Shown: positions 31,708 to 36,438 of the stretch, one piece after another
Numbering within the stretch: position 1 is the stretch's first letter
Layout of the letters: the number at the start of each line of letters is the position of its first letter
From: Sphingomonas sp. MA1305
GTDB taxonomy: Bacteria > Pseudomonadota > Alphaproteobacteria > Sphingomonadales > Sphingomonadaceae
Direction: 5' to 3'
Assembly (NCBI RefSeq): GCF_016107325.1
Contig: NZ_RCVT01000001.1
Location: 806,001-870,000, forward strand
Length of the DNA: 64,000 nucleotides
Translations under genes and position numbers: made by a program
The notes under the pieces: model-generated
Seen by the model: only the letters and a program-made list of their open reading frames with translations
What the model was told of the DNA's origin: nothing
Database searches by the model: none

Positions 31708-32112
31708 TCAGGCGTAACGGGTCGCGGTCTCGCGGATCAGCGCGATCATGTTCGGGATGCCCTGCGTCCGGTTCGAGCTGAGCTGGTTCCTGAGATCGAA
31801 CGGTGCCAGCTCCGCCGCTACGTCCGTCGCCACGATCTGCGCGGGCGCGCGGTCCTGCACGGTCAGCAGCACCAGCGCGATGATCCCCTTGGTGATCGCG
31901 GCATTGGAATCGGCGAGGAAATGCAGCGTGCCGTCGTCGCGGACGGTGGGATAGACCCAGACGGAGGCGGAACAGCCCCGCACCAGCGTCGCATCGGTCT
32001 TCAGCGCGTCCGGCATCGGCTCCAAGGCGCGGCCGAGGTCGATCAGCAGTCGATAGCGGTCGTCGGGGTCGAGGAAGTCATATTCGTCGCGGACGTCGGC
32101 GATGCTGGTCAT
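31708..32112 (-). CDS. sufE: Cysteine desulfuration protein SufE
   Basis: A 134-residue SufE. Cys47 in LVRGCSASVWVY accepts sulfur from SufS. The length and RQ/NRTQGIPNM C-terminal pattern match the family. The start MTSIADVRDEY at 32112 gives normal length; upstream frame adds 12 unlikely residues. It is the only suf gene here; the cysteine desulfurases at 11-13 kb are of a different type. It sits downstream of the psp genes, 129 bp away, so its own promoter is likely. Confidence 0.92.
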   Translation of the reverse strand: MTSIADVRDEYDFLDPDDRYRLLIDLGRALEPMPDALKTDATLVRGCSASVWVYPTVRDDGTLHFLADSNAAITKGIIALVLLTVQDRAPAQIVATDVAAELAPFDLRNQLSSNRTQGIPNMIALIRETATRYA

Positions 32113-32241
32113 GGGCGGTGCGGTACAGGGGCGGGACGGGCAGGGCAATCGATCATGCTCGCGCCTTCCCGCATCCCTGTCGCAGTGCCGGCCCCCGTAT
32201 CAGCCAGCGGCTGGAACCTTCAGGTACGGGAAGGATCGCGG

Positions 32242-32481
32242 TTAAAGGTCGACCCCGGCCGCGATCGCTTCCAGCTTCTTGATCCGCTCCTTGAGGTCGG
32301 CGATCTCGATCCGCGAGCCGGCCGACGGCACGGGGGGCGCCTGTTCGTGGGCCTGGTCGAGCTGCTGGTGCTTGAACGCCAGCCAGCTGCGCCAGCCGGA
32401 CAGGCCTGCGGTGGTCACCATGCCCAGACCGGCGAGGCCGGACAGCGATACGGTCAGATACACGATGTCGGGATTGGTCAT
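32242..32481 (-). CDS. Small membrane/coiled-coil protein, last of the psp array
   Basis: A 79-residue protein: one N-terminal membrane helix (about residues 8-29) followed by a Gln/His/Pro linker and a short C-terminal helix RIEIADLKERIKKLEAIAAG. The final helix resembles the RLEERVxVLERI motif of the neighbouring PspB-like proteins but is truncated. It is probably the most diverged member of the array and co-transcribed with it. Confidence 0.6.
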   Translation of the reverse strand: MTNPDIVYLTVSLSGLAGLGMVTTAGLSGWRSWLAFKHQQLDQAHEQAPPVPSAGSRIEIADLKERIKKLEAIAAGVDL

Positions 32482-32492
32482 GTCCGCCTCCT

Positions 32493-32735
32493 TCAGCGGT
32501 CGCGCAGCCGGTCGATCTCGCGATCGAGGTCGATGCTGCTGCGATTGTCGGTGATGACGCGTTCCAGCACCTGGACGCGGTCCTTGAGGATGCGCACCTC
32601 GTCATAGAGGCGCCTGGTCTCGTCGATCGGGGGGCGTGGGGCGTCGACGCGATTGCGGGTGATCGACCGCACCGCCATCACGATGCCGAACACCACCAGC
32701 GCCACGACTGCGACGATCACTTCGGCAGGGTTCAC
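32493..32735 (-). CDS. PspB-like membrane coiled-coil protein
   Basis: An 80-residue protein with an N-terminal membrane helix (about 4-24) and a C-terminal coiled coil ending in RILKDRVQVLERVITD and DREIDRLRDR. This is the same tail as in the three genes upstream. Function is inferred only from position and similarity to PspB, an inner-membrane partner of PspA and PspC. Confidence 0.7.
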   Translation of the reverse strand: MNPAEVIVAVVALVVFGIVMAVRSITRNRVDAPRPPIDETRRLYDEVRILKDRVQVLERVITDNRSSIDLDREIDRLRDR

Positions 32736-32748
32736 GGTCTAGTGCTCC

Positions 32749-33018
32749 TCAATTCACCTGGATGCGGAGTTGGTCGATCGTGTCGGACAGGTCCGCGCCG
32801 CGATCGGTGGCGATCCGCTCCAGCACCCGCACCCGCGCCTCCAGCCGCTCGACATGCGCCGCATATTGCGCCGCCTTCTCGGCGGTCTGGGCGTTGAGAG
32901 CGCCGGCCATCGTTTCCTTGTGCTTCAGCCAGCGCTTGAACATCTCGGAACCGATGCCGAGGATCACGGGCAGGCCGACGATCACGAAGGCGAGCATGAA
33001 GATAGTGAAGCCGTTCAT
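32749..33018 (-). CDS. PspB-like membrane coiled-coil protein
   Basis: An 89-residue protein with a membrane helix (about 3-24), a short basic loop (FKRWLKHKETM) and a coiled-coil tail with VERLEARVRVLERIATD. Its start overlaps the upstream stop by one base (TGATG), so translation is coupled. A paralogue of the adjacent genes. Confidence 0.7.
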   Translation of the reverse strand: MNGFTIFMLAFVIVGLPVILGIGSEMFKRWLKHKETMAGALNAQTAEKAAQYAAHVERLEARVRVLERIATDRGADLSDTIDQLRIQVN

Positions 33019-33275
33019 CAGCGCAGCCTTTCGATTTCGCGGTCGAGCCGGTGCGCGCCGTCGGTGACGATCCGCTCGACATTGGCGAGGCGTTCCTGCA
33101 ACCGGTCGATCTGGCCGACGCGCTGGGCGTTCTCGGCATCGAGCAGCTGGATGCCGCGGCGCGCCTCGATGTCCGGGGCGGCGATGGCTTGGCGGACCTT
33201 GCGGCGGCCGTACCATTGGATAGCGAGCGTGATCACCGATCCGATGATCATGCAGATGACGTGGTCGGGACCCAT
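33018..33275 (-). CDS. PspB-like membrane coiled-coil protein
   Basis: An 85-residue protein with one membrane helix (about 5-22), then a coiled coil with QLLDAENAQRVGQID and DRLQERLANVERIVTD, ending LDREIERLR. The tail matches that of its neighbours. It overlaps the next gene by one base. Confidence 0.7.
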   Translation of the reverse strand: MGPDHVICMIIGSVITLAIQWYGRRKVRQAIAAPDIEARRGIQLLDAENAQRVGQIDRLQERLANVERIVTDGAHRLDREIERLR

Positions 33276-33287
33276 GACGGCTGTCCT

Positions 33288-33602
33288 TTACCGGTCGCGG
33301 AGCGCTTCGATCTCGCGAGCGGTACGCTCGGCAGGATCGGTGGCGATGCGTTCGAGGACGGCGATCCGCTCCTCCAAGCGGCTGACTTGGCCGGTCAGCT
33401 TGTCGTTCTCGTTGGTGAGCAGCATGATCTTGCGCTCCGCCTCGATGTCGCCGGTCGCTTCGGCATAGCGCCCGCGGCGGCGGCTGCGGCGACTTTCCTC
33501 GTCGATCGGGTAGCCGTGCTTGGCCTTGACCCAGGTGGTGAAGGCATGCCGCGCCGAAATCGCGCCGACCACACCCACCGGAACCATCCAACCCATGTCC
33601 AT
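33288..33602 (-). CDS. PspB-like membrane coiled-coil protein
   Basis: A 104-residue protein with a weak N-terminal hydrophobic segment (WMVPVGVVGAISA), an Arg-rich region (SRRSRRRGRYAEA) and a coiled coil with SRLEERIAVLERIATD ending REIEALRDR. It is the longest member of the array; its membrane association is less certain because the hydrophobic stretch is short. Confidence 0.68.
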   Translation of the reverse strand: MDMGWMVPVGVVGAISARHAFTTWVKAKHGYPIDEESRRSRRRGRYAEATGDIEAERKIMLLTNENDKLTGQVSRLEERIAVLERIATDPAERTAREIEALRDR

Positions 33603-33639
33603 GTGAACTCTCCCCTTCAGACGCCCCGCGAGCGACGGC

Positions 33640-34020
33640 TCAGCGCAGGCTGTCGATTTCCTCGGCCAGCCGGCTGTTGCGGCTGGTATAGTGCAACTCG
33701 ATGTCGGCGAGCCGTCGATCGATGTCGCGGAACTTGCTGCGCACCTCGGCGGTCGACCGCTTGGGATTGCTGCGCACGCCCTGCCAGAACTTCTCGTCGT
33801 GCTCGTCCTGATACAGGTCGATCGGCTTGTTGTCGGCGACCCAGGCGATCACGAAATAGGCGACGACGATCCACCATTGCTGGGCGATCAGCGTCATGCC
33901 GGCGACGCCCAGGCGGACCCACATCGGGTCGGTGCCGATGTAATCGGCAATCCCCGAACACACGCCCTTCCACTTGCCGTTCTGCGGATCGAGGTAGAAT
34001 TTGGTGCGGCTGCCGGACAT
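33640..34020 (-). CDS. pspC: PspC-domain envelope stress protein
   Basis: A 126-residue protein with the PspC domain: FYLDPQNGKWKGVCSGIADYIGTDPMWVRLG followed by one or two membrane segments (about 40-62). Written in two parts, the first 16 residues carry the KGVCSG signature. The C-terminal helix RRLADIELHYTSRNSRLAEEID resembles the tails of the downstream PspB-like proteins. PspC with PspB senses envelope stress and releases PspA. It lies 1 bp after the pspB stop. Confidence 0.88.
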   Translation of the reverse strand: MSGSRTKFYLDPQNGKWKGVCSGIADYIGTDPMWVRLGVAGMTLIAQQWWIVVAYFVIAWVADNKPIDLYQDEHDEKFWQGVRSNPKRSTAEVRSKFRDIDRRLADIELHYTSRNSRLAEEIDSLR

Positions 34021-34021
34021 C

Positions 34022-34309
34022 TCAGTTCCTCCGATCGAGCTGGTAGTTGGACGCGGCGTAGGACGATTGCGACAGCGGTGGCTGCGGCGCGTTCAGTCCC
34101 GGCTTCCAGTCCGGATTGTCGGCGGCGACGATCCGCTCGACGGTGTTGAGCCGGTCTTCGAGGCGACGGGCCAGGTTATACATCTCATCGAGCAGCCGTT
34201 CGTCCTCGTCGGTGATCTTCGGCGCCTGCTTCCACTTCGTGATGTAGTGGAAGATGACCCAGGGTAAGCCGATGAAGATCGCCGGAATGACGATGATTTC
34301 GGACCCCAT
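34022..34309 (-). CDS. pspB: Phage shock protein PspB
   Basis: A 95-residue protein: membrane helix (about 3-22, IIVIPAIFIGLPWVIFHY), then the PspB-type cytoplasmic helix with DEDERLLDEMYNLARRLEDR and VERIVAADNPDW. The latter motif is close to that of E. coli PspB, whose tail also has DNPEW. A Pro/Gln-rich end (PQPPLSQSSYAASNY) is extra. It follows pspA by 1 bp and precedes pspC by 1 bp. Confidence 0.88.
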   Translation of the reverse strand: MGSEIIVIPAIFIGLPWVIFHYITKWKQAPKITDEDERLLDEMYNLARRLEDRLNTVERIVAADNPDWKPGLNAPQPPLSQSSYAASNYQLDRRN

Positions 34310-34310
34310 C

Positions 34311-34988
34311 TCAGCCCTCCTGTCCGCTGCGGTTGCTCAGCCGCGCCTTCAGCGCCGCCAGTTCGGCATCGACCTTGTCGCTCTGGCGCAATTCGGCGAT
34401 TTCCTCTTCGAGCGTCTTCGTGACACCCAGGCCGAGCGCCTCGGCGCGACCCTCGGCATCGTCGACGCGGCGTTCCAGGACGTCGAAGCGGCTGAACGCT
34501 TCGTTGGTCTTGGGACCGGCGTACATCTCGCGCAGGCGGAAGCGGTTGTTGGCGCTTTCCAGCCGCGTCTGCACATTGGCCTGCTTGGTCCGCGCCTCGG
34601 TCAGCTTCTTCTGCAGCTTGGCGATATCCTCTTCCGACGCGCGCAGCGCATCGTCGAGCACCTGCACCTCGGCCTTCAACTGGTCGGCCATGTCGACCGC
34701 CTTCTGCTTCTCGACCAGCGCCGCCTTGGCCAGATCCTCGCGGTCCTTCGACAGCGCCAGTTCGGCCTTCTCGGTCCAGTTCGCCTGCAGCTGTTCCAGC
34801 TTCAGGATGTGGCGCCGCATCTCCTTCTGATCGGCGATGGTGCGGGCCGCGGACGCGCGGACCTCGACCAGCGTCTCCTCCATCTCGAGGATGATCATCC
34901 GGATCATCTTCGCCGGGTCTTCTGCCTTTTCCAGCAGGTCGGCGAAGTTGGCGGCGACGATGTCGCGGGTGCGGGAGAAAATGCCCAT
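34311..34988 (-). CDS. pspA: Phage shock protein A
   Basis: A 225-residue PspA/IM30 coiled-coil protein. MGIFSRTRDIVAANFADLLEKAEDP is the amphipathic membrane-binding start, and the rest is long helices (KLEQLQANWTEKAELAL) with the conserved tail around LRQSDKVDAELAALKARL. PspA stabilises damaged inner membranes and in enterobacteria represses PspF. The gene is first of the main psp block; a 46-residue protein gene stands before it. Confidence 0.94.
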   Translation of the reverse strand: MGIFSRTRDIVAANFADLLEKAEDPAKMIRMIILEMEETLVEVRASAARTIADQKEMRRHILKLEQLQANWTEKAELALSKDREDLAKAALVEKQKAVDMADQLKAEVQVLDDALRASEEDIAKLQKKLTEARTKQANVQTRLESANNRFRLREMYAGPKTNEAFSRFDVLERRVDDAEGRAEALGLGVTKTLEEEIAELRQSDKVDAELAALKARLSNRSGQEG

Positions 34989-35057: not shown

Positions 35058-35198
35058 TTACGCCGTCTGGCGGGCGGCGGACACGGTGGCCGCGTGATGC
35101 GTCGCCGCCGGACCCACCGCACCCGCCACGCAGGTGGCGCTGAAGACGATGGTGCAGGCGATGGCGGCGATGGTGCGGCCGATGTCGGACTTGAACAT
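35058..35198 (-). CDS. Small exported or membrane protein leading the psp operon
   Basis: A 46-residue protein with a GGAGG ribosome site 5 bp before ATG. MFKSDIGRTIAAIACTIVFS forms one hydrophobic segment that could be a signal peptide, followed by a short tail rich in Ala and His (PAATHHAATVSAARQTA). It is the first gene after the sigma-54 promoter and just ahead of pspA, so it is induced with the operon. No known homologue comes to mind. Confidence 0.65.
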   Translation of the reverse strand: MFKSDIGRTIAAIACTIVFSATCVAGAVGPAATHHAATVSAARQTA

Positions 35199-35256: not shown

Positions 35257-35272
35257 TGCAGGAGGCGTGCCA
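35257..35272 (-). promoter_or_regulatory. Sigma-54 (-24/-12) promoter of the psp operon
   Basis: On the minus strand, TGGCACGCCTCCTGCA matches the sigma-54 consensus TGGCACG-N4-TTGCA with one mismatch and the exact GG-N10-GC spacing. It lies 59 bp before the first psp gene and between pspA and the divergent sigma-54 activator gene pspF, exactly where expected. Transcription should begin near 35246. Confidence 0.85.
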
Positions 35273-35327: not shown

Positions 35328-35373
35328 ATATGAACGCTTGCGGACCATTGGGATTTTGCGCCAAGAGTTGGCG

Positions 35374-36438
<1,065 letters not shown>

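Follow-up and report, generated by a model that had tools for sequence, protein, structure and literature searches.

How PspB and PspC recognize damage and relay it to PspA is unsettled, and the literature is divided even on the side of the membrane on which the PspC tail lies. In the sections of one E. coli study drawn on here, a PspC fragment spanning residues 40-119, which comprises the transmembrane (TM) helix and the tail, bound both PspA and PspB in two-hybrid tests, zipper mutants showed no PspA binding, and overexpression of the fragment induced psp without lowering the proton-motive force (PMC3068692). According to the same sections, PspC fragments, among them 40-119, failed at low level to restore the induction of psp under stress, and the tail is putatively periplasmic with two topologies possible, so that the side it occupies is open to dispute (PMC3068692).

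Additional copies of psp genes have been noted in two surveys, each cited here for the portion of its text that we drew on. Multiple PspA and PspC paralogues occur in many genomes (2022 survey; PMC9239133), and a 2024 survey (PMC11237479) records, in one clause each, 'PspB duplicates' in psp operons (example AOL22920.1), which are extra PspB-like genes, and a 'divergent PspB fused to PspC', which is a PspB-like end on PspC. AOL22920.1 may come from the same bacterial family as the DNA described below. That portion of the 2024 text mentions neither classes nor an array nor a pairing with tail-less PspC, and a search of the main texts in the open-licence literature gave no earlier account of such classes, of their array in this family or of a pairing between module proteins and tail-less PspC.

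The DNA analysed here is a 64,000-nucleotide stretch from Sphingomonas sp. MA1305 (hereafter the window), in which an array of five small genes, o1 to o5, lies behind pspA, pspB and pspC. Like PspB (PF06667, TIGR02976), the encoded proteins are small, with one N-terminal TM helix and a helical tail. Unlike the window's PspB, with its ADNPDW end, the o1-o5 translations lack a D-x-P-[DE]-[FWY]-type terminus, and o1-o4 carry a T-D...I..LR half instead. They differ from PspC in that the head domain is missing, o1-o5 giving no PF04024 match at E <= 1. What o1-o4 do have is the architecture of E. coli PspC 40-119, that is, a TM helix and a tail, and because of this shared architecture we propose that they could serve as extra docking tails for PspA.

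Gene layout of the psp locus

The PspA, PspB and PspC proteins of the window pass curated models, and the locus holds a pspF-type activator gene, a sigma-54 site and pspA, pspB and pspC in that order, which identifies it as a psp operon of the PspF/sigma-54 type. The sigma-54 promoter-like site is the sole match in the window with fewer than two mismatches, and looser matches across the window are not in excess (29 versus 21.8 expected). A site with at most one mismatch also lies upstream of pspA at 26 of 30 loci from the window's genus, 39 of 41 from the rest of the family and 28 of 29 from other families of the order, for which mononucleotide shuffles give summed expectations of 0.10, 0.80 and 0.10, respectively.

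Features of the psp locus in the window; the class A, C, D and E profiles used for scoring were built with the window's own proteins included
Feature	Position	Strand	Score or remark
o5, 79 aa, class E: TM, GWRSWLAFK, variable linker, RIEIADLKERIKKLEAIAAGVDL end	32242-32481	-	class E profile 113.3 bits
o4, 80 aa, GTG start, class D, tail module	32493-32735	-	class D profile 81.9 bits
o3, 89 aa, class C (AEKAAQYA), tail module	32749-33018	-	class C profile 119.4 bits
o2, 85 aa, rare class B' (IQW after TM), tail module	33018-33275	-	
o1, 104 aa, class A: TM helix, K.KHGYP linker, tail module	33288-33602	-	class A profile 120.8 bits
pspC, C-terminal tail complete (DRRLADIELHYTSRNSRLAEEIDSLR)	33640-34020	-	TIGR02978 121.3 bits over 2-121/121
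pspB	34022-34309	-	PF06667 79.7 bits; TIGR02976 84.6 bits
pspA	34311-34988	-	TIGR02977 271.8 bits, cut-off 242.95
46-aa ORF, signal-peptide-like start and AVGPA motif	35058-35198	-	between sigma-54 site and pspA
sigma-54 promoter-like site TGGCACGCCTCCTGCA, 1 mismatch	35257-35272	-	upstream of pspA
pspF-type activator gene (Sigma54_activat and Fis-type HTH), divergent	35338-36438	+	PF00158 5.4e-61; PF02954 1.4e-7
sufE	31708-32148	-	PF02657 6.2e-34; usual gene after the array, taken as its boundary and outside it

The original prediction placed five small genes behind pspA, pspB and pspC, and gene calling bears this out: for all eight genes from pspA to o5 the annotated frame is the best of the six, so that the five small genes look coding. 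The o3 gene overlaps o2 by 1 base, and median gaps between neighbouring array classes range from -1 to 31 bases; the array is presumably co-transcribed with the psp genes. Short ORFs resembling the 46-aa ORF upstream of pspA are present in all six loci of the window's genus that we inspected, the window included.

Classes, copy number and age of the array

Classes were defined from 100 psp loci of Sphingomonadales genomes, in which genes were called (with the exception of L048, which gave no pspA match, and L122, a contig end with no ORF) and the proteins from the window's family were clustered, excluding those longer than 170 aa and those beyond sufE. One cluster of 246 proteins from 69 loci holds o1-o4, and a second, of 60 proteins from 60 loci, holds o5 and defines class E. 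A tree of the first cluster, read together with sequence signatures, yields classes A (o1), B (not represented in the window), B' (o2), C (o3) and D (o4), with clade support of 0.951 for B, 0.841 for the main C clade, 0.644 for the main A clade and 0.044 for the clade containing o4. The common gene order is A-B-C-D-E, with losses, and C comes first in part of the family. The scheme also classifies several small membrane proteins of Sphingomonadaceae that had been left uncharacterised, as well as isolated relatives elsewhere in the phylum, outside the window's taxonomic class.

For the copy-number survey across Sphingomonadales that had been suggested as a check, the loci of the window's genus and of the rest of the family were supplemented with the best 80 loci by PspC likeness, a set that overlaps the others and comes mostly from Sphingomonas and Sphingobium, with some Stakelama and Rhizorhapis. 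One record in this material, L171, titled Arthrobacter sp. TPD3018, has a Sphingomonas-like pspC (80% identical over the match), and its title is probably wrong. Counts of order and copy number omit loci whose gene chain does not reach sufE (1/30, 9/41 and 17/80, respectively), and presence was tallied again mechanically over all loci, such chains included. The number of array genes per locus is 3-6 among the 30 loci of the genus, 1-7 among the 41 from the rest of the family and 0-6 in the 80-locus set, where 78 of the 80 have at least one. Thus, 149 of 151 loci of Sphingomonadaceae carry at least one array gene, with 1-7 per operon where the array is present, a figure that counts loci rather than independent species because the best-80 set overlaps the other loci. 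Elsewhere in the order, 26 of 29 loci have no array gene and three have a single class-D gene each. Class E is present at 30/30, 35/41 and 77/80 loci (genus, rest of family and best-80 set), and the o2-type class B' is found at 3/30, 0/41 and 3/80. Since two of the 80 loci, both from Sphingobium, have pspABC without the array, the array is dispensable. In these natural array-free strains, Sphingobium vermicomposti (L191) and S. jiangsuense (L204), which could serve as controls, pspABC is present and an array gene was not found.

The classes are old. For 299 of 308 array proteins, the best match in another genus scores above the best paralogue in the protein's own operon (A 53/53, B 45/45, B' 2/3, C 75/83, D 63/63, E 61/61), and this cross-genus match belongs to the same class in 300 of 308 cases (A 53/53, B 45/45, C 83/83, D 58/63, E 61/61); for B' it is never of the same class (0/3). 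This orthology by class across genera argues that duplication occurred mostly before the genera split. Recent tandem duplication as the main origin of the array is ruled out by the 299 of 308, the exceptions being 8 of 83 class C proteins and one of three B' proteins. Class C was later multiplied in part of the family, with more than one copy in 15 of the 32 complete loci outside the genus. The original prediction held that repeated duplication built the set and proposed dating the duplications by phylogeny; classes A-D are indeed paralogues, and the cross-genus comparison places most duplications before the genera, in ancient orthologous classes rather than recent copies, with later additions in class C.

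Two further small ORFs were encountered at these loci. One, of 38-42 aa, lies between the class C and class D genes in a gap of ~160-250 bases (L040, L046, L061 and others; 12/30 loci of the genus, 0/41 of the rest of the family and 9/80 of the best-80 set), has a hydrophobic N-terminal part and closes with a sequence of the type E-[SRM]-x-DRP[RV]RR; the window gave no match to it. The ORF may encode a microprotein that has been missed, on weak codon-position evidence. The other, a 58-aa protein with a GIGLG[ST]AIAVAISWS motif, follows class E and precedes sufE at seven loci (L069, L074, L077, L078 and others), none of them from the window's genus.

A C-terminal module and its relation to PspB and the PspC tail

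Each array protein consists of one TM helix, its own linker and a C-terminal module. The module can be described by a full spaced pattern, R[ILV]xx[LVIM]Exxx[TS][DS]x8-9[IL]xxL, of which the first part, R[ILV]xx[LVIM]E, forms a core. The full pattern is present in o1, o2, o3 and the window's own PspC, which share, ungapped, the R-x4-E, T/S-[DS], I/L and L spacing of the second half of the PspC model TIGR02978. In o4, where the spacer behind the T-D pair is longer, the pattern is matched only if that spacer is lengthened, and o5 and the window's PspB contain the core only. The motif varies in sequence, reading NVERIV in o2 and starting with ILKDR in o4. The scan thus agrees with the earlier observation of a C-terminal motif common to o1-o4 and weak in o5. 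Among 32 other genes of the window (14,550 residues) the full pattern does not occur, and the core alone occurs five times, which makes the core alone weak evidence. Across loci, some of which are counted in both sets, the full pattern is found in 111/121 class A, 72/79 class B and 117/133 class C proteins, in only 16/131 of class D and in 0/136 of class E; PspC itself has it in only 46/91 cases, and PspB in 0/82.

All five array proteins fall short of every Pfam and NCBIfam cut-off. Against PF06667 (PspB), o3 and o4 score 12.7 bits where the cut-off is 25.6, and the best of the five scores 18.4 against TIGR02976 (cut-off 51.7); by the cut-offs that define the PspB family, the five proteins therefore do not qualify as members. 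The strongest hints of a Psp relationship are those of o3 and o4 to the PspB model (E = 0.0045 and 0.002) and of o2 to the end of the PspC model (0.0034). In profile-profile comparison (hhalign probabilities), A, B, C and D match one another at 98-100%, the PspC tail at 93, 95, 62 and 89%, and PspB at 73, 74, 90 and 16%, respectively. PspB and the PspC tail match each other at 1.3%. Class E matches A, B, C and D at 52, 13, 86 and 92%, with no direct match to PspB (0.4%) or to the PspC tail (0.1%).

Because coiled-coil composition could mimic such a relationship, each comparison was repeated with 60 column shuffles that preserve the heptad, using the hhalign score. No shuffle reaches the real score for A, B or C against PspB, or for A, B, C or D against the PspC tail, the margin for D and the tail being narrow (32.9 versus 31.1 for the best shuffle). 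For D against PspB, one of 60 does, so this pairing is no better than shuffles. For class E, 27/60 shuffles reach the score against PspB and 51/60 against the PspC tail, and the tail module is therefore not recognized in E; its scores against A, C and D are reached by 0/60 shuffles, and that against B by 6/60. A second control, with 27 coiled-coil stretches of PspA, gives at most 7.2%. In classes A-D, with the exception of D against PspB, the motif therefore exceeds generic coiled-coil composition.

By these profile comparisons, classes A, B, C and D are paralogues, consistent with the placement of o1-o4 in one BLAST cluster, and E is linked to them only via A, C and D. The PspC tail is the better match in three of the four classes (A, B and D), and PspB is the better match for C. 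Classes A-C thus link PspB with the PspC tail, and D is closer to the tail. The description of the set as PspB-like paralogues, for which comparison with PspB profiles had been proposed, holds in part: A, B and C are related to PspB (73-90%), but o1-o5 lie below the PspB cut-offs, A, B and D are nearer the PspC tail, and D (16%) and E (0.4%) do not match PspB.

In 302 of 308 array proteins, lysine and arginine are more numerous in the 15 residues after the TM helix than in the stretch before it, from which the tails are predicted to be cytoplasmic. An AlphaFold2 model of o1 (pLDDT 79.5, pTM 0.37) has a TM helix at residues 3-29 and a long helix at 36-103. The idea of a shared fold in which the helix breaks at the T-D pair is unsupported, as the o1 model runs as a single helix from 36 to 103. 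The model of PspC (pLDDT 54.4) is too poor for a comparison of tail folds, and a sequence search of the PDB returned nothing for PspC at E <= 1 and, for PspB, five weak matches, all at E >= 0.065.

Tail-less PspC and the possible role of the array

Class-D-type proteins also accompany PspC proteins that lack a tail. In a related family (f8), 16 of 32 genomes have a class-D-type match, at 22 loci in all. Thirteen of the 22 genes, from 13 genomes, belong to a run of psp genes (pspA and pspB are visible in 11 cases, PspC alone in two), and each of these 13 directly follows a PspC-like gene that ends 4-9 residues past the head domain; the other nine are alone in the stretch examined. In the window's own family, one genome (G069; completeness 100, 40 contigs), which is the sole representative of its genus in the sample, has no PspB match at E <= 0.01 and a single PspC match, an 88-aa protein without a tail that is followed by class C and class D proteins. 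Two other loci of the family, L095 and L096, have a tail-less PspC in addition to a full one. At L136 (f8) and L109 (f2), a tail-less PspC is followed by pspB and has no adjoining module protein of its own, so that the pairing is not strict when viewed from the PspC side. Judging by gene order, a separate protein probably supplies the missing PspC tail in the f8 and G069 cases, which suggests that this tail is detachable. Hetero-oligomers or a tuning of PspA release, as the original prediction suggested, are conceivable, and these cases make a role of the array with PspA and PspC more likely.

We therefore favour, at slightly better than even odds (about 0.55) and by analogy with E. coli PspC, a reading in which PspA finds in the array several docking tails, each on an anchor of its own and located within or close to the PspB-PspC complex. 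The array proteins would be single-pass inner-membrane proteins, each joining its own TM anchor and linker to a copy of the module found at the end of PspC and, shortened, at that of PspB. Like the C-terminal cytoplasmic domain of PspC, which binds PspA when the system is on, they would reside in or beside the PspB-PspC complex as extra, differently anchored docking tails, and under membrane stress might help to pull PspA off PspF or to seat it on the membrane. We infer PspA binding, complex membership and class-specific signals for these proteins; class E, whose module is reduced to its first half, more probably acts as a partner or silencer than as a PspA binder. A broader proposal, which we put forward tentatively, is that the tail on which PspA docks is an independent, interchangeable unit of PspC that has been split from its head and multiplied on different anchors, and that Sphingomonadaceae might use a combinatorial complex of PspB, PspC and array proteins to sense membrane damage of several kinds and to relay it to a single PspA-PspF switch. 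With the tail available as a separate gene in several natural versions, binding, silencing and sensing can be tested apart.

The array proteins could alternatively be multi-input sensors, each class pairing with PspC or PspB through its own TM helix and responding to its own membrane lesion, with one PspA-PspF switch downstream. Such an arrangement, which is compatible with docking tails, would accord with the conservation across loci of a class-specific TM and linker sequence, usually in the same place in the gene order, and with the nearly invariable single-copy state of A, B, D and E. However, class A is absent from 3/30, 18/41 and 13/80 loci and class B from 16/30, 7/41 and 45/80 (genus, rest of family and best-80 set), and as each is missing from so many loci, neither is needed for a working system. 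We consider sensing of this kind doubtful.

The array proteins might also act as silencers that pair with PspC or PspA and keep the system off, much as PspB-PspC contacts reportedly do in Yersinia. The core R[ILV]xx[LVIM]E that the array has in common with the window's PspB speaks for such a role, as does class E, which carries the core only, but that core is frequent enough among unrelated genes of the window to carry little weight, and the tail-less PspC pairings look more like the replacement of a missing tail than the blocking of one. Silencing by the array as a whole therefore seems a distinctly unlikely account when set against the docking-tail reading.

Relatives of class D extend beyond the family: of 299 genomes from across the phylum, 41 give a profile match, with 16 in the window's family, two and four in two further families of the same taxonomic class (f5 and f20) and 19 in five families outside it. 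The 16 genomes from the window's family contain 65 matches, of which 64 are found within ~4 kb of pspA, as compared by eye, the exception being G051:C6. In 3.2 kb stretches around two f5, four f20 and nine other relatives, no psp gene was seen by motif beside the match. Two relatives that stand alone in other classes of the phylum score 25.0 and 27.0 bits over the second half of the NCBI PspC model, below the cut-off; the one with 27.0 also matches the PspB model TIGR02976, at 2.2e-10 and 40.7 bits, again below cut-off (51.7). Class E is more restricted, with matches in four of 241 genomes of the window's class, all four in the window's family. That the array consists of unrelated small coiled-coil membrane proteins merely riding in the psp operon, as the free-standing relatives and the failure to pass any Pfam or NCBIfam cut-off might imply, is very improbable given profile matches that beat both heptad-preserving shuffles and PspA coiled coils, and given the proximity of nearly all family matches to pspA. 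A second pspA locus in one genome (L086, G109) consists of pspA followed by a divergent PspC and a class E gene only, in a chain without pspB.
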